Shown: positions 1,541 through 23,697 of the stretch, one piece after another
Position numbering within the stretch: the stretch's first letter is position 1
How the letters are laid out: every line of letters starts with the position of its first letter
Origin: Methanobacteriota archaeon
GTDB lineage: Archaea > Thermoplasmatota > Poseidoniia > Poseidoniales > Poseidoniaceae
Assembly: GCA_014240385.1 (NCBI GenBank)
Contig: JAAZXA010000024.1
Location: 1 to 60,322 of the forward strand
DNA length: 60,322 nucleotides
Direction: 5' to 3'
Position numbers and translations under genes: made by a program
The notes under the pieces: model-generated
Database searches by the model: none
What the model was told of the DNA's origin: nothing
The model's input: the letters and a program-made list of their open reading frames with translations, nothing else

Positions 1541-3985
1541 TTGCAAACAGGTAGCGCACATAAAATATTGGTTTTTATTGCTCTATCAACCTTGATTTCT
1601 CCTACAGCAATTGCACTATCGCCAAGTGGTCTAGGATACGTGGGTGTATTCACTCCTGGCCAAAATAGTTTGGATTATACTTGGTCTGTTGCATTGTCGC
1701 CTGATGAATCTATTTTAGCAACTGGTACTGACCGATACCTTGTTATGATGAATATGACAGATAGGTCAATAATCAACAAAATTGAACTTGCAGATACTCC
1801 AACTGTGTTGGCCTTCACTCCTGATGGCAACTACCTTGTAGCAGGTCTTTTATCCGCGAGTGCCCAAACTGTTTCGGTTAAGGTTTTTGAAGTTGCCACG
1901 ATGTTGAGTGTAGGTAATGATATTACCAATGGAATGAATCCTAAGTCGATCGCTATCAGTTCTGATAGTAGCCGAGTTTTAATTCAAGATCAACATAAAG
2001 GTGCATTCGAATTATCCTTGCCTAGTTTGGATATTCTTGGACATTTAGAGGATGGACATGACGATACAGTTTCCTGTGTAGGATATGGTAAGAGCGATGA
2101 GGTTTTGATGACTGGAGGGGTAGATGGAAAATTGATACTGTGGGACGCAGCCGACCATAGCCAAATTCGTGTGATTGAAAATCATGCTGAATTTATACAA
2201 GATTGTACTATTTCAGCAGATGGGAAAATAATTTCAATTTTGGATGATAATGGAGTATTAAGGAGTTTTGATGAAGATGGAAACGCAATTCAGGGTTCAA
2301 AATTAGACTTCCTTAAAGCAGTTGAAATAGAATGGTCGGTTGATGGAGAATATCTTTTCGTTTTAGAATCATTCCTAGTATCTTCAATTCAAAAAATTAG
2401 GGCATCGGATTGGAGTCTGATTGAAATCACCCAAATGGCCCATAAAGTGATTGATTTCACCATCTCGGAAGATGAACGAAGTATTATCGTCAGCACAGGT
2501 ACAACCCACTTAGCCATATATCAATCCAATTACATTGCATATGGCCAAGGACAAGATGGGCCAGATTTTGATGAAGATGGGATTCCGGACATTTTGGATA
2601 TAGATGATGATGGAGATGGGATTTCAGATATTTATGATATTCATTGCCAAGAGGGTGAGGACTGTTCTCTTTATCCTAATGAAGACTATTTGAGAAATAT
2701 TGAAATCAATATTAAAGGAGGAGTACTGGAAGTCCAAGATACTATTTCATTTTCCAAACAAGACTCAAGTGCATTAAGGAATCTCACTTCAACATTATTG
2801 ATTGACGACCGAAAAATCACTCCCGAGGAATTAACTTGGATGACAGAGGCGATGTGTGATAATATTGTTTCAAGAGACGTCGTGGAGTCATGGAGGCTCT
2901 TACTTTCTTTAGAGGGCGCAGAATTGGGTGCTGGTGAAATGAGCTGTGGCTCAGTGCAAGGTATGTCAACAGCATCATTAGAGGATCATAGTGCAAGAGC
3001 ATCCCTTACATGGACAACAACTTTTCAGTTGAATGGTCAGCCAGTTGCGCCTTACAATATTACGATTAAAGGGGTATTGGAAGCCCCAACAGGTAGTTCA
3101 GCGGTTATCTCGGCCCAATTCCCGGTGTTAATCACCTTCACCGACCCATTGGCAGTAGATGGGTCAGATATTATTTGGCAGAGGACAAATGGTTTTACGA
3201 GCGCATTTATGGATTCAATACCGCCTGAAGACCCCGGAATCGATGCCTTACTCAAAGCATTTTTTTCCGTAAATAGTTGGATTCCACTGTTATTTATATT
3301 TTCATCACTACTTTTTGTTGGAATAATTTTCAAACAAAAAAAGGACATACAAATGAAATTAGTCGACTCAGGAGCTCAAGAAAATGAGGACGAGGAAGGT
3401 GATGAGTCTGAAGAGGTATTTGAGGATTATTATCCTGAAACCGAGGAAGAGGAATTTGAAGAGGAAATAGAAGAAGCGTGGTCAAATGAATCCGAATCAA
3501 CCCCTCCTAAACCAAAGCGTGGCCCACCTCGCGCTTCCACTCGTAGGGCCTCAAAGATGCCTATTTCAACTCCCGTTAAGGCAGTAAAGACTCGACGCAG
3601 AAGAGTAAGTTCTGAGCAGCCAGAGGGCTCCAAGAGAGTACCGCTGAGTGAAGTTTCAGATGAAGAAGAGAAATCTTCTGATGGTGATTATAATTATGCA
3701 CTAGATGGTGTCTATCACGACCCCGATTGGGAAACAGATTATGGACAAGTTGAGATGGCAACTAAAGTCCGTAAGGTGGTAAAACAAGAACCTCCTGAAC
3801 CGGCAGAAAAATCAGCATCAAAGAGCCGAAGAAAGGTGAAGAGGAAAAACAAGACGGGGTCAAAAAAGAAGACAACTGCCGAACCGGAGAAACAATTTTC
3901 AGAGGAATCAGAGAATGATGATGGGGATGATGATGATGCAATGGATAAAGCATTGGGAATGTTAACAGGTAGTTTCCCAAAGTGA
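1541..3985 (+). CDS. Secreted/membrane beta-propeller (WD40-like) protein with TSP3-type Ca repeats, one TM helix and a long charged cytoplasmic tail
   Basis: Signal peptide; WD40-like blades (LSPDESILATGTDRYLVMMNM, VLMTGGVDGKLILWDAADHSQIRVIENH); DFDEDGIPDILDIDDDGDGISD; TM SWIPLLFIFSSLLFVGIIF; acidic/basic low-complexity C-terminus; TTG start. Confidence 0.7.
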   Translation: MQTGSAHKILVFIALSTLISPTAIALSPSGLGYVGVFTPGQNSLDYTWSVALSPDESILATGTDRYLVMMNMTDRSIINKIELADTPTVLAFTPDGNYLVAGLLSASAQTVSVKVFEVATMLSVGNDITNGMNPKSIAISSDSSRVLIQDQHKGAFELSLPSLDILGHLEDGHDDTVSCVGYGKSDEVLMTGGVDGKLILWDAADHSQIRVIENHAEFIQDCTISADGKIISILDDNGVLRSFDEDGNAIQGSKLDFLKAVEIEWSVDGEYLFVLESFLVSSIQKIRASDWSLIEITQMAHKVIDFTISEDERSIIVSTGTTHLAIYQSNYIAYGQGQDGPDFDEDGIPDILDIDDDGDGISDIYDIHCQEGEDCSLYPNEDYLRNIEINIKGGVLEVQDTISFSKQDSSALRNLTSTLLIDDRKITPEELTWMTEAMCDNIVSRDVVESWRLLLSLEGAELGAGEMSCGSVQGMSTASLEDHSARASLTWTTTFQLNGQPVAPYNITIKGVLEAPTGSSAVISAQFPVLITFTDPLAVDGSDIIWQRTNGFTSAFMDSIPPEDPGIDALLKAFFSVNSWIPLLFIFSSLLFVGIIFKQKKDIQMKLVDSGAQENEDEEGDESEEVFEDYYPETEEEEFEEEIEEAWSNESESTPPKPKRGPPRASTRRASKMPISTPVKAVKTRRRRVSSEQPEGSKRVPLSEVSDEEEKSSDGDYNYALDGVYHDPDWETDYGQVEMATKVRKVVKQEPPEPAEKSASKSRRKVKRKNKTGSKKKTTAEPEKQFSEESENDDGDDDDAMDKALGMLTGSFPK

Positions 3986-15905: not shown

Positions 15906-17099
15906 CTACCTTTCGATTAAAGTCCGTATTGCTTTTGCAATATCCGCAGTGTCCTGCAAAGCCCAATGCTCACCCAGTGAATCAATTAGATGTGCACGAG
16001 GTTTGTTTGTATCCAATAAGTCCTCAAGACGGTTTGCAATAACTGCAGTCATTCCAGAGTTCTTTATCTGGGCCAATGCGCGGTGAACTAAGTCACTAAT
16101 TTTCACTCCCGTTTCTAGTTTAAAACCAATCCTTGTACAATTTTCACATAGTTCTTGAAGTTCCTTAATGTGCTTTTGCCCCTCTTTCAAAGTAATATTC
16201 CAATCACCTTGTTGTGATGCAAATTTCCCTAATCTAGGTTCATCAACTAGATAATCCAATACTGCAGCGCAATGAACCCATGCTTGGATATCATCGTTTG
16301 ATAATGCAATGCATTCCCTCAGCATCTCATCAGGCTCATCTGCTTGAATAACCAGTGGTAATGCAAAGGCTGCTTGTACAGTTGTTGTGCCAGCCACAAC
16401 CGTCACATCATGCCCATGCCGGTGTAAATCCTCTGCAATCGCCCAACCGGTACCTCCACTGCTGGTATTTTGCACATATCGAATATCATCAATAGGGCTG
16501 CGAGTTGCACCGAGTGTAATTACAATGGATTTCCTATTTGCTTTTTCCTTGTTAATGAAATGACAGAAAGCAGCCACAAGTGAGATAGGATTATCTTGCT
16601 TTCTTTTACCTTCAATGATTGGCCCCCAGTGAAGGCTCATTCCATAATTTTTCAATTCTGATTCAATATCTATTGTGATTGGATCTTTAGCCAGATTATC
16701 ATGCATACTTGGCACCATCATGATGGGTATTTTTCTACCTCGGGCGGCTGATAATGCCATCAATAGTGGCGTATCCATCATTCCTTGTGCAACTGAAGCC
16801 ATATGATGGCGAGTAGTTGGGCAAACCAATACCGCATCCACATCATCCAATTGCCTCATTTCGCCCTCCCAATCGGTAATGACTTCAGAAGCGCTCGCCC
16901 AAGATAATGCCAGAGGTGTGATGATTTTTTGGGCAGAATGGGACATTAATACGACTACATCTGCACCATGCCTTCGTAGTTCTCTTGCCACTTTTACAGA
17001 TTCAACCGCGGCAATGCCACCACTAACTCCCAACAATATGGAAAGGCCAGAAAGTGAGTCTCCTTGTGGAATGACTCCGGTATCCCGAATGTTGGTCAT
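15906..17099 (-). CDS. coaBC: Bifunctional phosphopantothenoylcysteine decarboxylase / phosphopantothenate-cysteine ligase
   Basis: LLGVSGGIAAVESVKVARELRRHGADV (flavoprotein) and ITLGATRSPIDDIRYVQNTSSGGTGWAIAEDLHRHGHDVTVV (CoaB). Confidence 0.9.
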   Translation of the reverse strand: MTNIRDTGVIPQGDSLSGLSILLGVSGGIAAVESVKVARELRRHGADVVVLMSHSAQKIITPLALSWASASEVITDWEGEMRQLDDVDAVLVCPTTRHHMASVAQGMMDTPLLMALSAARGRKIPIMMVPSMHDNLAKDPITIDIESELKNYGMSLHWGPIIEGKRKQDNPISLVAAFCHFINKEKANRKSIVITLGATRSPIDDIRYVQNTSSGGTGWAIAEDLHRHGHDVTVVAGTTTVQAAFALPLVIQADEPDEMLRECIALSNDDIQAWVHCAAVLDYLVDEPRLGKFASQQGDWNITLKEGQKHIKELQELCENCTRIGFKLETGVKISDLVHRALAQIKNSGMTAVIANRLEDLLDTNKPRAHLIDSLGEHWALQDTADIAKAIRTLIER

Positions 17100-17186: not shown

Positions 17187-17795
17187 ATGACAAGTGATGC
17201 GGGGGGATTTGAACTCCCTCAAAATAATTCATTGCTTCCTTCTCAAGATCCTTTGCAGGCTTTGCATAGGCAAATCTATTGGGTGATGTTAGGTACAATC
17301 GGACTTTTGGCATTGATTTGTTATTCATTGATTAATGCGGTATTTGCAAGTAAGGGCTGGGTTGTCATATTTCCCTGTATTATTTTGGGAATGGGTTGGT
17401 CAGGATTCAAGAATAAAAAGGTCTGGGCTTATCCCTTTGCGGTGGGATTAAATGCAGTGGGTGTAATGCTTTTTGCCCTTATTGGATTGCTTCTAATAAT
17501 TAGTTTCGATGGTTTTTCAATCCTTATAGGAGTATTAATGGTTTTTTCATCAGTACAATCTTGGAGACGCCTAACAGTAATGAGAAATCCACTATTCAAA
17601 GCATGGTATTTAGGACTGAACATCCCGATGATGGGAATGGGCCTTGATGAAGGAGAAATATATTCATCCTGCCCTCACTGCTCATCAGTATTGGCAATCC
17701 AGCCATCAAGATTGACAGCAGAAGATAAATGCCCATCATGCCATGGTCCGCTAGTTAGTGGTGAAACAATTAGGCAATTGAATGAAGAAGAATGA
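17187..17795 (+). CDS. Hypothetical membrane protein with C-terminal zinc ribbon
   Basis: Several TM segments and CPHCSSVLAIQPSRLTAEDKCPSCHGPL. Confidence 0.65.
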   Translation: MTSDAGGFELPQNNSLLPSQDPLQALHRQIYWVMLGTIGLLALICYSLINAVFASKGWVVIFPCIILGMGWSGFKNKKVWAYPFAVGLNAVGVMLFALIGLLLIISFDGFSILIGVLMVFSSVQSWRRLTVMRNPLFKAWYLGLNIPMMGMGLDEGEIYSSCPHCSSVLAIQPSRLTAEDKCPSCHGPLVSGETIRQLNEEE

Positions 17796-17798
17796 TTC

Positions 17799-18836
17799 TT
17801 AGCGTGATGCCAAGGTTAGGTTTTTCCACATATCTTCTGGTACTTCCATTGCTAAGCGAAGTCCACCCATTGCACCCAATCGGATTGGGTCGTCTACTAC
17901 CAGGACGTTGATTTCACCAAGGTCGGAAAGGTGCTCTTCAATCATTGCGCCAAGTCCACGGATTCCGGAACCGCCGCCAGCAAGTACCATGTTCTTTCGG
18001 AATGCATCTTGATATTCAGGGTTAGATGAGGAGATTAGCGTCTTGACACGTTCTACGATTGGCTCAACAATGGCTTCACAAGCAACTTGAACACATTCTG
18101 TAATATCTAGGTGCATTGCTTTTCCTTCGATTGAGAAATCCACTAGAATTGGATCATCGGGTTGAGAGGTGCCCACGAATGAGTGGTCTTCCTTCCAGCG
18201 CCGTGCCATATCCTTGGTTACTTGTGCGCCACTGTATTTGAGTTGGATTTCCTTGATGATTTGATTGTCCACAAAGTCTCCAGCAAAGGAGGAATGTACT
18301 TGGTCGCTTGGCTCAGGGATAGTTCCGTAAACGCGGCAAATATCAGTAGTACCTGCGCCGATATCAATGACTATTGTGTGCTCTAACATATCAAGAGCAT
18401 ATGCAACAGCGAAAGGTTCTGAGATAATCATGCAGGCGTTGACTGATCCAGCTGCTGCATCAAAGATGTAGGTTTTATCGACATAAGATGCCTCTGCAGG
18501 TGCGCCGATGACTGCAACAACTCTGTCATAGTCTTCAGGGTCGGCGAGTCCAATCAAATGAGTGATGAAGTGGGCGATGAATTCCCGGTCTTTTTGAGTA
18601 TCTTTGATGACACCATGTTCTAATGGGCGAAATAGGTCAAGTGCTAAGCGGTTTTTGAGTGATTCTTCACCAAATAATACATCTCGCTTGAGGAAGTTTC
18701 TAGCAATATGGTCCTTTGGTGTTCCAATTACTGTTAACTCTCCATCTTCATGTCCGTCGCTGGATACCATCACAGAGCGGAATGTTCCTAGGTCTATGCC
18801 AATATAGAGCACTTCTTCAGCCATGTTTTGTGCCAA
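17799..18836 (-). CDS. Actin-like ATPase of the MamK/MreB type
   Basis: LYIGIDLGTFRSVMVSSDG (phosphate 1), VIDIGAGTTDICRVYGTIPEPSDQV (phosphate 2), NMVLAGGGSGIRGLGAMIEEHL (adenosine); closest recalled match is magnetosome actin MamK. Confidence 0.85.
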   Translation of the reverse strand: MAQNMAEEVLYIGIDLGTFRSVMVSSDGHEDGELTVIGTPKDHIARNFLKRDVLFGEESLKNRLALDLFRPLEHGVIKDTQKDREFIAHFITHLIGLADPEDYDRVVAVIGAPAEASYVDKTYIFDAAAGSVNACMIISEPFAVAYALDMLEHTIVIDIGAGTTDICRVYGTIPEPSDQVHSSFAGDFVDNQIIKEIQLKYSGAQVTKDMARRWKEDHSFVGTSQPDDPILVDFSIEGKAMHLDITECVQVACEAIVEPIVERVKTLISSSNPEYQDAFRKNMVLAGGGSGIRGLGAMIEEHLSDLGEINVLVVDDPIRLGAMGGLRLAMEVPEDMWKNLTLASR

Positions 18837-18959
18837 TCGAATCCGACTTATGAATTATGCCTTTCAATGGCCTTGAATGTTGGGTTCACAATGCTCGTTT
18901 TTTTGAGGCAGAATTGTTTCTACCAAACATGTTATTTAACTAAAATAGCTAGAAATCTC

Positions 18960-18981
18960 TTGAATCAGATTGCTGATTCAA
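18960..18981. repeat. Perfect inverted repeat TTGAATCAG-attg-CTGATTCAA
   Basis: 9-bp arms with 4-nt spacer in the 196-bp intergenic region upstream of the actin gene and downstream of kptA. Confidence 0.6.
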
Positions 18982-19032
18982 AGTTCACACTAGTGGATGT
19001 AGCGTATTACTTTCCACTATTTTTGAAAAAAT

Positions 19033-19764
19033 TCATTCCTCTTCCCAAACAGCTTCAATTTCCATAATCATCTGGTCATCTACTGGTAGTGCATCAAGGT
19101 ACAGTGCTGGAATGTCTTCACTCAAGAAGACAGTAGTTCCGGCCCGATAGATAGTGTGCCCATCGGCAATTGCTCGCTCAGTGTCTATTTCAAGGATGCG
19201 TGGACGCTTGATTCGAACATGCCCTGCTTCCATAGCATTTGTGATAGTTTTGGAAAGATGGACGTGTTGACGGTCTCCTGCTTTGATTCCTAATTCTAAA
19301 TGAGTCGCTAGGTCATCTCCTTCACATGGATAGTAAAGTGCCTCTGGGATGTCGTCTACGGGCAAATCCAACTCGATTTCTATGCTGTGCCCGTATGTTG
19401 CCCTAACCATGTCTCCTTCGACTTGGTAGCGTCCCTTCTCATCTCCCAAAGCGATAGCTTCGAAATGCCAAGGACGTAGCCAGTGATAGTAGTGGCGGGC
19501 TTCCTTAAATGAGTCGCAAAGTTTGCTAGTTGAGATCCAACCGTTGATATCCATTTGCAGATTAAACTTTTCAGGGAAGTGCCGTAGAACCCCTGCCATC
19601 AAGCGACCGAGCCCGTTTTGCTCCCTTTCGCTCATGATGAATTTCCCTTCTTCATTGCATACTGGGCAGTTCTGGCCATCATAATATCCGTGCGCTCTAC
19701 ATTGACGTAGCATGTGAATCGAAGCCGGCGACCGGACATTCATTGATAACTCCCACGGTGCCAT
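19033..19764 (-). CDS. kptA: RNA 2'-phosphotransferase (Tpt1/KptA) with N-terminal zinc ribbon
   Basis: CRAHGYYDGQNCPVCNEEGKFIMSEREQNGLGR, YQVEGDMVRATYGHSIEI, HVHLSKT. Confidence 0.88.
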   Translation of the reverse strand: MAPWELSMNVRSPASIHMLRQCRAHGYYDGQNCPVCNEEGKFIMSEREQNGLGRLMAGVLRHFPEKFNLQMDINGWISTSKLCDSFKEARHYYHWLRPWHFEAIALGDEKGRYQVEGDMVRATYGHSIEIELDLPVDDIPEALYYPCEGDDLATHLELGIKAGDRQHVHLSKTITNAMEAGHVRIKRPRILEIDTERAIADGHTIYRAGTTVFLSEDIPALYLDALPVDDQMIMEIEAVWEEE

Positions 19765-19805
19765 TGTAACCGTGATGTTGAACAGCCGGATTCCCTCGCA
19801 CCCTC

Positions 19806-20933
19806 ATGGGCGCTGTAATTGTCGAGTATGTGCGGACACCATTTCATCGCGCTCACAAGGGCTTGTTGAATGAAACAAGACCTGAAGATATGCTTGCAGT
19901 AGTCATCGACGAAGTGCTTAGCAGAACCGGAATTCAAGCCTCAGAAATTGAAGATGTACTTTTGGGCTGTGCTTACCCAGAAGGTGTCCAAGGACTGAAC
20001 TTAGGGAGAATTGCTGGCTATCTATCTTTGCTTCCAACATCTGTTCCTGGCTCAACAACAAACCGCCTATGCGGTTCCTCAATGCAGGTCATTCACATGG
20101 CTGCTGGTAATATCGCAATGGGCGCTGGCGAGGTATTTCTCTGCGCTGGAGTTGAAACAATGTCCTTAGTGAAACGCGGTGGGTGGAACCGCGACCTACA
20201 TCCTGAAATTGAAACTACTCACCCTGATGCTTACATTAACATGGGGTTGACAGCAGAGAACTTGGCTGATTCCCATTCAATTTCAAGAATGAGGCAAGAG
20301 GAGTTTGCCCTAAGGAGCCATCAAAAAGCCGCTGAAGCAACGGGAGAAGGGAAGATGGAAAATGAATTGTTTAGTATTTCAGGCATTTCAGAAGATGGTT
20401 GCATAAGAGGGAGCACATCGATGGAAAGAATGGCGACATTGAAACCTGCATTTACCGAAACTGGTACGGTAACTGCTGCAACATCATCACCTTTGACTGA
20501 TGGAGCTGTTTGCTTGATGGTTTGTTCTGAAGCATTTGCTGAAAAAAATAACTTACAGCCAATGGCCCAAATTATAGCAACAGCAGTCGCGGGAGTAGGA
20601 CCGGAAGTCATGGGAATTGGTCCCGTGCCAGCCACTAGAAAAGCCCTACAAAGAGCTGGACTTAGCCTCGATGATATGGATGTAATAGAATTGAATGAAG
20701 CGTTTTCGTCTCAATCGATTGCCGTAATGATGGACTTAGGCCTATCAGACGATGACCCTCGCGTGAATATCGATGGTGGTGCTTTGGCTATCGGCCATCC
20801 GCTCGGGGCGAGTGGGGCCAGAATTACCGGCAAAGCCGCCTCATTGCTTCAAAGAATAGGTGGAGAATATGCTTTAGCAACAATGTGTATTGGCGGGGGC
20901 ATGGGTATTGCTACTATTCTTAAGAAAGTTTGA
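19806..20933 (+). CDS. Acetyl-CoA acetyltransferase / thiolase
   Basis: NRLCGSSMQVIHMAAGNI active-site Cys region; NIDGGALAIGHPLGASGARITGKAA; CIGGGMGIATIL. Confidence 0.93.
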   Translation: MGAVIVEYVRTPFHRAHKGLLNETRPEDMLAVVIDEVLSRTGIQASEIEDVLLGCAYPEGVQGLNLGRIAGYLSLLPTSVPGSTTNRLCGSSMQVIHMAAGNIAMGAGEVFLCAGVETMSLVKRGGWNRDLHPEIETTHPDAYINMGLTAENLADSHSISRMRQEEFALRSHQKAAEATGEGKMENELFSISGISEDGCIRGSTSMERMATLKPAFTETGTVTAATSSPLTDGAVCLMVCSEAFAEKNNLQPMAQIIATAVAGVGPEVMGIGPVPATRKALQRAGLSLDDMDVIELNEAFSSQSIAVMMDLGLSDDDPRVNIDGGALAIGHPLGASGARITGKAASLLQRIGGEYALATMCIGGGMGIATILKKV

Positions 20934-21989
20934 TTGAAATCTCGCCAAACCTTCTTGATGTTGAACCCTAGTGGAGTATCTATGGGCATGGGTATTAGGC
21001 GCGGTAGGGCGGCAGCAAAAGATAACTTAACAGTTGATGAAGAAGGAGATTGCCCGCGATGCCGTGGAGATGCTGAACCCTCCTCACTCGAAGGTTTCCT
21101 ATGCTGTAGTGGCTGCGGGTATGAATGGAGAAACCCTGATCACGTTCAGGCTGCAAGGGCTCCCCCCCCAACTCACCGTAGAGATGCTGAATTAATTCAA
21201 GAGTTTCAGCAAGAATTAGAATCAGGGAGTATGAGGGGTGCACTCGGTATTGAAAAGAATTTATCCAAGGAACAAGAAGCAAGCCTCCAACGCTTAGAAG
21301 ATAAGTGGATGACTGGGCTTCAGGGCACATTCAATGTGGCACACGAAGAACGTAAACCCCTGATGCTATCTTTTGATGAAGAAGATAATATTCAGAATAC
21401 GGTTATTGCATCGGTTACTTTGTTAAATAATGAATATGATGGTGGAGAAGAAATCAGAATCGAATATCCAGGACTAGGGACCGAATTTTATGGCTATGAT
21501 GAAGACGATACCAAAGGCTGGAGACAGGGGCGAACCATCGAAGATACAGCGAGAAACATTGCGAGTATCATCAACAACCTGTCAAAATTTGTTTATGCAT
21601 CCTCAGAAGGCACATCAGTGTTATTCGAGATGCGGGATAATCGTTTGGAAGCAGCATCATTAGTTGTTTATGTTGAGGACCCAGGGGAGCAAGACATCAT
21701 CGCCGAGAAAGGTGGGGTTTCGATGGATGCCCGCGACGTGAAGATAGTCGAAGATTATCAAGCAGCAGTCGAAATTGTCCTAGAGGATGGAATAATCTCT
21801 CCAAGTGAGGACCAAATGCTTTGGGCTATGCGAGAAGCACTCGGAATCAGTGATGCCGATCACGTACGTATTGTCATGGGGATTTTTGGCGATACCGCCG
21901 TAAAAGAATGTACTAGTTGTGGAGGAATGGCTCAACTATATCCTGAGTATTCTGCGTGGTATTGCACCCCTTGTGAAACATGGGTATGA
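20934..21989 (+). CDS. Hypothetical protein with N- and C-terminal zinc ribbons
   Basis: CPRCRGDAEPSSLEGFLCCSGCGYEW near the N-terminus and CTSCGGMAQLYPEYSAWYCTPCETWV at the C-terminus. Confidence 0.65.
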   Translation: MKSRQTFLMLNPSGVSMGMGIRRGRAAAKDNLTVDEEGDCPRCRGDAEPSSLEGFLCCSGCGYEWRNPDHVQAARAPPPTHRRDAELIQEFQQELESGSMRGALGIEKNLSKEQEASLQRLEDKWMTGLQGTFNVAHEERKPLMLSFDEEDNIQNTVIASVTLLNNEYDGGEEIRIEYPGLGTEFYGYDEDDTKGWRQGRTIEDTARNIASIINNLSKFVYASSEGTSVLFEMRDNRLEAASLVVYVEDPGEQDIIAEKGGVSMDARDVKIVEDYQAAVEIVLEDGIISPSEDQMLWAMREALGISDADHVRIVMGIFGDTAVKECTSCGGMAQLYPEYSAWYCTPCETWV

Positions 21990-21996
21990 GGAAAAA

Positions 21997-23679
21997 TCAA
22001 GACATCCTGTTAAGTTGATAATTTGTCAACTGTTTCAGAATATTCATATCAGTTGAGATAGGTAAACTTGCTAATGCATCATTTGCAGCAGCATGATGAT
22101 GCTCCGCTACGGCTCTTGCATTTTCAATTGAACCTAACTTTCCAAGTGCTTCAATTGCCCTTTCTATATCAGTTTCCGATGCTTCATCACCCTTTCCGAA
22201 AGCCCTAAGGAATATTTCCAATTGCTCTCCAGATTGTTCAAGGGCGTGAAGGACGATTAGGGTTTTTTTACCTTGAGCGATATCGCTGCCTTTAGGCTTA
22301 CCAATAGTGACGCCATCACTCAAAACATCGAGTAGGTCGTCCATTAGTTGGAAACACATCCCCACTTCTCTTCCCCAAGTCGAACAGGCTTCGATGGTAT
22401 CTTCATCCGCACCTGCTAATAGGGCACCTAATTCGGCTGCAGTTTGAAACATCACGGCAGTCTTACCGTCGATCATGTCCAAATAATCCGAAATGCCAAC
22501 ATCTTCTTCATTTTCAAAAGCGATATCAAGTTGCTGTCCTTCAGATACTCTCCGTACCATCTTGCCTATTGTCAAAACAACATGGGCGATATCTTTCATT
22601 TCAATTCCCGAACTATTGGCTAAAATTTCGAAGCCAACTGCTAACATTGCATCTCCAGCATTTATTGCTGAGGTGATATCAAATTCCTTGTGAACCGCGG
22701 GTCGGCCTCTGCGCACATCATCATCGTCCATGATATCATCATGAACTAAGGTAAAGTTGTGGATAACTTCCAAGGCTGCTCCAACATCATCATGCCCTTC
22801 GTGCGCATTTCCAAGTGCCTCTCCAACAATACGTGGTAAAGTAGCCCGTAAACGCTTACCTCCTCCTTCAATCAAGTGTAGCATTGCTAATCTTAATCGT
22901 TCAACCTTCGCCTTTGAAAGTGCACCGCGCACTTTTCCTTCAACTGTTGGGCGGCAACGATTTATTGCATCAGATAGAGATTCATTTAGGGCATTATTTT
23001 GTGATAGGTCTAACCGCCCAAACCTATGGATAATGCCATCTGCATTTAATGATTCAAGATTATCCCACCAATCCATTAACAAATTATCGGCAATCAATTG
23101 GAACCAAGGGGCTATAGTTTCCCCATTTTCAGGGCAAGCGGCAGAGAAATTCAACCATTCTTCTTGGGTAAACCATCTTGTTTCATCAATTTCATTTTGG
23201 TTTGGATTGGGGTGAACGTCTTTCTGGAGAATCATTACATGGTCGAGTTCATGCTCAACCCATTCTTCATCCATGCGCGACATATAGAGCATTTTTGTCA
23301 TGGGTTGGAAATCTTCAACATCTAAAGAATCTGATGGGACACCTAGTTCTTGCTCCATTTTCCTAATAGCTGCATTTATGCTCCCTCCAAAGTCATCTCT
23401 TTCATCTTCCACATCTAATGGGTGGGAGCAGCAAGCATTGGCCCAAACACCTGGGAAAGTGATTTTGTCTTTTGAGCGCTTTTGTAGAAGCATTCTGCCT
23501 GATGAATCGAAAACAAGGACTGAAAATGCTCTATGTAATGAACCTCGGTGATGGTGACTAGCTAATTTTGATGCTGTGCCAATTTGTTGGTCTTTTTCAT
23601 CAACCAATATGACCTGTTCCACCATCATCTCTACTTGGCTATTATCATGACCTGCATCCATTAGGTCCTCGGGTTGCAT
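21997..23679 (-). CDS. Fusion of type-1 isopentenyl-diphosphate isomerase (Nudix) and (geranyl)geranyl diphosphate synthase
   Basis: N-terminal Idi-1 sequence (LHRAFSVLVFDSSGRMLLQKRSKDKITFPGVWANACCSHP), C-terminal prenyl synthase with VHDDIMDDDDVRRGRP and LMDDLLDV; ATG at 23679 fits a TATA box about 24 nt upstream. Confidence 0.88.
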   Translation of the reverse strand: MQPEDLMDAGHDNSQVEMMVEQVILVDEKDQQIGTASKLASHHHRGSLHRAFSVLVFDSSGRMLLQKRSKDKITFPGVWANACCSHPLDVEDERDDFGGSINAAIRKMEQELGVPSDSLDVEDFQPMTKMLYMSRMDEEWVEHELDHVMILQKDVHPNPNQNEIDETRWFTQEEWLNFSAACPENGETIAPWFQLIADNLLMDWWDNLESLNADGIIHRFGRLDLSQNNALNESLSDAINRCRPTVEGKVRGALSKAKVERLRLAMLHLIEGGGKRLRATLPRIVGEALGNAHEGHDDVGAALEVIHNFTLVHDDIMDDDDVRRGRPAVHKEFDITSAINAGDAMLAVGFEILANSSGIEMKDIAHVVLTIGKMVRRVSEGQQLDIAFENEEDVGISDYLDMIDGKTAVMFQTAAELGALLAGADEDTIEACSTWGREVGMCFQLMDDLLDVLSDGVTIGKPKGSDIAQGKKTLIVLHALEQSGEQLEIFLRAFGKGDEASETDIERAIEALGKLGSIENARAVAEHHHAAANDALASLPISTDMNILKQLTNYQLNRMS

Positions 23680-23697
23680 TGGCTCTTCCACTTTGAC

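Follow-up and report, generated by a model that had tools for sequence, protein, structure and literature searches.

The locus raises the question of whether a planktonic archaeon makes a magnetosome actin or a filament protein of another kind. The window, by which we mean the whole stretch of 60,322 nucleotides analysed here, contains an ORF that the original prediction described as a filament protein resembling the magnetosome actin MamK in a planktonic archaeon, possibly a cytoskeletal scaffold. The host is indeed planktonic, a member of the Poseidoniales (Marine Group II), uncultured archaea of marine surface water; of its archaeal core genes, CoaBC and Tpt1 lie beside the ORF and EF-2 and TiaS elsewhere in the window. 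The ORF was listed from a TTG at 18836; it is a real gene that more probably begins with the ATG at 18824, and here we denote it actin A, or paralog A. Its nearest named orthologs are those of Candidatus Poseidonia alphae and of other Marine Group II genomes. Features of the locus are collected in Table 1.

Table 1. Features at the actin A locus of the window.
Feature	Position	Strand	Remark
CoaBC flanking gene	15906..17099	-	anchor of the locus and of the empty site
Flanking gene with membrane segments and a zinc ribbon	17187..17795	+	conserved neighbour
MamK-related actin, Poseidoniales paralog A	17799..18824	-	341 aa, ATG start
Inverted repeat between Tpt1 and actin A (9-bp arms, perfect; 4-nt loop)	18960..18981		candidate Tpt1 terminator or operator
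RNA 2'-phosphotransferase (Tpt1/KptA) flanking gene	19033..19764	-	conserved neighbour, not partner
Thiolase-family flanking gene	19806..20933	+	other border of the gene 2-actin A cassette in relatives
Gene 2, partner of A; zinc ribbons at both ends, TerB-like C-terminal segment	20934..21989	+	

The actin-fold motifs that had been claimed for the protein are all found in actin A (IGIDLGT, SEPF, VIDIGAGTTD and LAGGGSGIRGL), and the phosphate-1 and adenosine motifs of the actin ATPase are present. The catalytic Glu (E143 of MamK) and the phosphate-2 Asp (D161) are conserved, and catalytic residues are kept both in A and in a second actin of the lineage, denoted paralog B. An AlphaFold2 model of actin A showed the actin fold with a pLDDT of 91.5. 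Orthologs within the family are 73-84% identical; dN against relatives is about 0.13 with silent sites saturated, indicating that the gene is under strong purifying selection, and dN/dS is about 0.05 in the single pair with a finite dS.

Among solved structures, actin A matched MamK of Magnetospirillum best (E 6e-79), followed by BeeR (2e-43) and MreB (3e-16), and it is 42% identical to AMB-1 MamK over the whole length. NCBIfam scores were 367 bits for MamK, 208 for BeeR, 86 for MreB, 57 for salactin, 16 for DnaK and 12 for crenactin, as expected from the prediction that the protein is more like MamK than like crenactin or MreB. The MamK model, NF040964, has a cut-off of 400 bits, which is reached neither by A nor by B (337-339 bits). 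Actin A also stays below the cut-offs of BeeR (NF053558, 530 bits), MreB (TIGR00904, 79.5 vs 365.75), salactin (NF053533, 56.7 vs 400) and crenactin (NF053560, 11.7 vs 630), and passes the broad Pfam models PF06723 for MreB (86.5 vs 27) and PF25229 for salactin (51.3 vs 27.1). In predicted fold the closest chain is 5ljv, a subunit of the MamK filament (TM 0.89/0.93, rmsd 2.0 A, 42% identity), and BeeR comes second, with 31% identity in the fold alignment. MamK is the closest characterised relative of actin A.

We built an actin tree with MreB as the outgroup and salactin sequences left out. From the outgroup, BeeR branches first, then B, then A, and A is sister (90/76) to a group made up of magnetosome MamK, MamK-like proteins of other bacteria and one further archaeal sequence, that of genome G210. 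Thus A groups with MamK and lies outside MreB, which forms a separate clade on a long branch. Identity as DnaK/Hsp70, EutJ or an ordinary MreB, any of which would have spoken against a MamK-like actin, is ruled out by this tree and by the profile scores (DnaK 15.5 vs a cut-off of 648, EutJ 32 vs 182). In AU tests, forcing A into the magnetosome MamK group was rejected (p 0.022), and A and B as one clade was not rejected (p 0.38). A record named 'Deltaproteobacteria AH-558-G13' (L126) groups with B. It was dismissed as a bacterial holder of B, as its flanks are a Poseidoniales synteny block; the contig carries the full actin-B block and seems to come from a mislabelled or mixed single-cell genome.

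Among 390 genomes of the phylum, G210 gave the only other strong match. Its contig is archaeal (rpoB_arch and arch_KAE1 are present), its actin passes NF040964 (435 bits vs 400), and on locus L183 (9128-12279) the MamK gene is followed by one for a protein of 618 aa with much coiled coil. No strong actin match was found in the other sampled genomes of its class.

We searched 146 genomes of the Poseidoniales class and found actin matches in 71/71 genomes of group f1 and in nine of group f2, the latter from genera g15, g17, g19 and g22. From named loci and the basal/crown pattern we infer that f1 corresponds to Poseidoniaceae (MGIIa) and f2 to Thalassarchaeaceae (MGIIb). An A or B match is present in every sampled f1 genome, nearly all of which have both, and actin-bearing genomes mostly hold two copies, A about 73-84% and B about 46% identical to the query. 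Paralog B is near-universal in the family of the window. The genomes without B, including that of the window, are also without the essential neighbour GGGPS, apart from one that has it at a contig end; hence an assembly gap is the likeliest reason for the missing B in these genomes. Similarly, the absence of both actins from some g15 genomes is explained by assembly gaps or contig ends.

The search for neighbours in related genomes, proposed with the original prediction, tied gene 2 to A, and a protease and a coiled-coil gene to B. In relatives gene 2 encodes about 340 amino acids, normally adjoins A and precedes the actin on the same strand, at a spacing of 76-228 bp, which is no tight operon. 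Its TerB match (E 0.001) is below the Pfam cut-off, and a fold search returned nothing convincing, the flagellin and phage-tail matches being weak (TM about 0.22). In the window the tract of Tpt1, thiolase and gene 2 (19033-21989) is inverted with respect to relatives, by a real rearrangement or a misassembly, so that gene 2 is apparently separated from A by a local inversion and actin A apparently stands alone. The gene had been described as monocistronic with a 196-bp upstream region; from the ATG the gap is 208 bp (18825-19032), and the lone appearance seems specific to this genome. The gene at 17187..17795 is kept in many actin-less genomes and hence is not a dedicated partner. At the B locus the conserved row is a secreted S8 protease, actin B and a coiled-coil protein of about 420 aa (gene 3, called coiled coil by a heuristic), flanked by the L18a-prefoldin-FtsY group and GGGP synthase.

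Full-length genes 2 and 3 were found in f1, and within f2 in precisely those nine genomes that carry the actins. In actin-less f2 genomes, 19 A loci are devoid of exactly gene 2 and actin A and have intact neighbours: thiolase and CoaBC are kept, ProRS usually and gene 5 often. At 16 B-type loci of such genomes neither protease nor actin remains, and what is left of gene 3 is an N-terminal stretch of about 160 aa. In a species tree computed from nine flanking proteins (3653 columns), all actin-less f2 genomes fell into one clade, with the actin-bearing g17/g22, g15 and g19 branching earlier, corresponding to a single change, and the gene trees of A and of B do not contradict vertical descent. 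Together the species tree, gene trees and empty sites indicate that both actin cassettes are ancestral to Poseidoniales and were lost jointly and once, from two unlinked loci, on one reduced-genome MGIIb branch. This agrees with the finding of Tully 2019 that MGIIb genomes are smaller, the two most basal clades excepted (PMC6336850). As the loss was a single event, the co-occurrence of actins and partners is not statistically independent evidence. We also noticed that the remnant of gene 3 (in L187, L188 and L190, for example) survives without the actin, suggesting that the N-terminal part has a separate function.

With moderate confidence we propose that paralog A is one of two actins that make up an ancient cytoskeletal module in Poseidoniales; the module would form filaments with adaptors and would not serve magnetosomes. 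Judging from its relatives, the module probably makes ATP-driven filaments: A would bind ATP and polymerise like MamK, perhaps together with B, and the filaments would disassemble upon hydrolysis, as those of MamK do. On B, the coiled-coil protein may be the adaptor that binds the filament; the zinc-ribbon protein may regulate A specifically or serve as its adaptor. Such filaments might shape or position cell content, be it a membrane domain, surface machinery or the nucleoid, and the scaffold role suggested from the sequence alone is plausible for A. The closest functional parallel to the module is found in Desulfovibrio magneticus RS-1, whose magnetosome chains are organised by coiled-coil proteins together with two actins, MamK and Mad28, which can co-polymerise; in deep-branching magnetotactic bacteria, too, coiled-coil proteins accompany MamK and another actin (PMC12748827). 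The coiled-coil-rich protein encoded after the MamK of G210 also speaks for the proposal. A bolder version, which we hold as no more than tentative, takes A and B as an archaeal equivalent of the magnetoskeleton that has nothing to do with magnetism, with distinct or mixed filaments that, with the coiled coil, would position an undescribed membrane domain or compartment.

Several known actins can be compared with A. MamK (NF040964; PDB 5ljv, 5jyg, 5ljw) is the best match of A in sequence, profile and predicted fold and has the same ATPase residues, whereas A sits on a separate branch, in an archaeal core-genome context in which no magnetosome genes were found, and A and B have partners of their own (the zinc-ribbon gene, the S8 protease and a Poseidoniales coiled coil). 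BeeR of Verrucomicrobiota (NF053558; PDB 8r2n), which is related to MamK, has no magnetosomes to serve and forms polymers with ATP (PMC11929497), is second in profile and fold; it branches outside MamK and A, and its disordered N-terminal extension of 30-50 aa is absent from A, where the first strand of the model begins at residue 5. BeeR also tells that very different filaments are possible among MamK relatives, which counts against MamK-like filaments for A. For salactin, the actin of Haloarchaea and relatives, MamK was reported as the nearest family (PMC10746226); A is far nearer to MamK than to salactin (367 vs 57 bits), and the long charged N-terminal tail is a salactin feature.

Could A instead set cell form, as a filament under the membrane in the manner of MreB or crenactin? 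An actin that is universal in its lineage, single-copy, chromosomal and strongly conserved would fit this. Crenactin is an archaeal actin with operon partners, the arcadins, one of which is a coiled coil, and a coiled-coil gene likewise stands at the B locus. However, A has no significant relation to crenactin (12 bits), which belongs to another lineage and has other partners, and its similarity to MreB is low (86 bits; the fold is shared at 24-25% identity). As neither actin is adjoined by a wall-synthesis or RodZ-like partner, we regard a cell-shape actin as unlikely. Segregation of DNA or plasmids, a frequent role of actin-fold ATPases, would make A a ParM-like protein, and here the genomic setting disagrees: the A locus is fixed among the core genes CoaBC, ProRS and EF-2 and the B locus among L18a, FtsY and GGGPS, no parC-like iterons are present upstream of actin A, and phage or plasmid matches are weak and MreB-like where annotated. 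The segregation role is thus very unlikely, and a phage or plasmid origin of A was rejected on the same weak matches (27-30% identity). A protein that does not polymerise and acts as a regulator or chaperone-like ATPase also has precedent, some actin-fold ATPases forming no filaments, and A carries D at MamK position 278, where the substitution A278D blocks MamK assembly. We discarded this residue as a sign, since the position is variable and a Magnetococcales MamK has D there. Polymerisation is common to MamK, BeeR and MreB and the predicted fold of A is closest to a filament form, so that a non-polymerising ATPase appears decidedly improbable.

An actin that positions a polar archaellum motor would account for the fact that archaellins, like the actins, are found in nearly all genomes of the window's family, in line with the report that motility is common in MGIIa (Tully 2019, PMC6336850). 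The two distributions do not coincide, however: in genus g17 (three genomes, 85-88% complete) the two actins occur without archaellin, and in g14 and g21 archaellin occurs without an actin. These mismatches largely refute the link, which we consider highly improbable. Finally, the 42% identity to AMB-1 MamK, and MamK being the best-scoring family, are what one would expect of a bona fide MamK that came from a magnetotactic bacterium and works in some hidden system of magnetosomes or organelle chains. This reading is extremely improbable, and the label of magnetosome actin has to be dropped: A falls short of the NF040964 cut-off, stands beside the MamK clade with placement in the magnetosome clade rejected, and, actins aside, shares no neighbours with bacterial mam loci. 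The parts of the window that were examined showed no magnetosome genes, and a search of the 146 genomes, run with no positive control, found no magnetochrome domain.

The two-actin module concerns an archaeal order that is among the commonest in the ocean and supplies named, testable components of its internal organisation. We found no earlier report of actins in Marine Group II in the open-licence literature, and the genome and transcript papers on the group that were consulted treat neither actin nor MreB nor a cytoskeleton. MamK, BeeR and salactin being known already, the Poseidoniales actin adds a new branch to a familiar type of protein. The results suggest that the MamK branch extends beyond magnetotaxis and takes in archaea by at least two routes, in Poseidoniales and in the G210 lineage. 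Actin-less MGIIb genomes are a natural clade of loss mutants for MamK-related actins and their partners. If the tentative magnetoskeleton version were true, MamK-type actin would predate magnetosomes as a means of positioning, put to use for them in bacteria and for another purpose in archaea.

Two other genes of the window are worth noting. The ORF at 21997-23691, judged by its sequence, resembles a fusion of two enzymes, a Nudix-type IPP isomerase and a polyprenyl diphosphate synthase, and recurs in relatives at the same place as one gene of about 565 aa. At 1541-3985 an 814-aa protein has WD40/beta-propeller matches, which is unusual for archaea.
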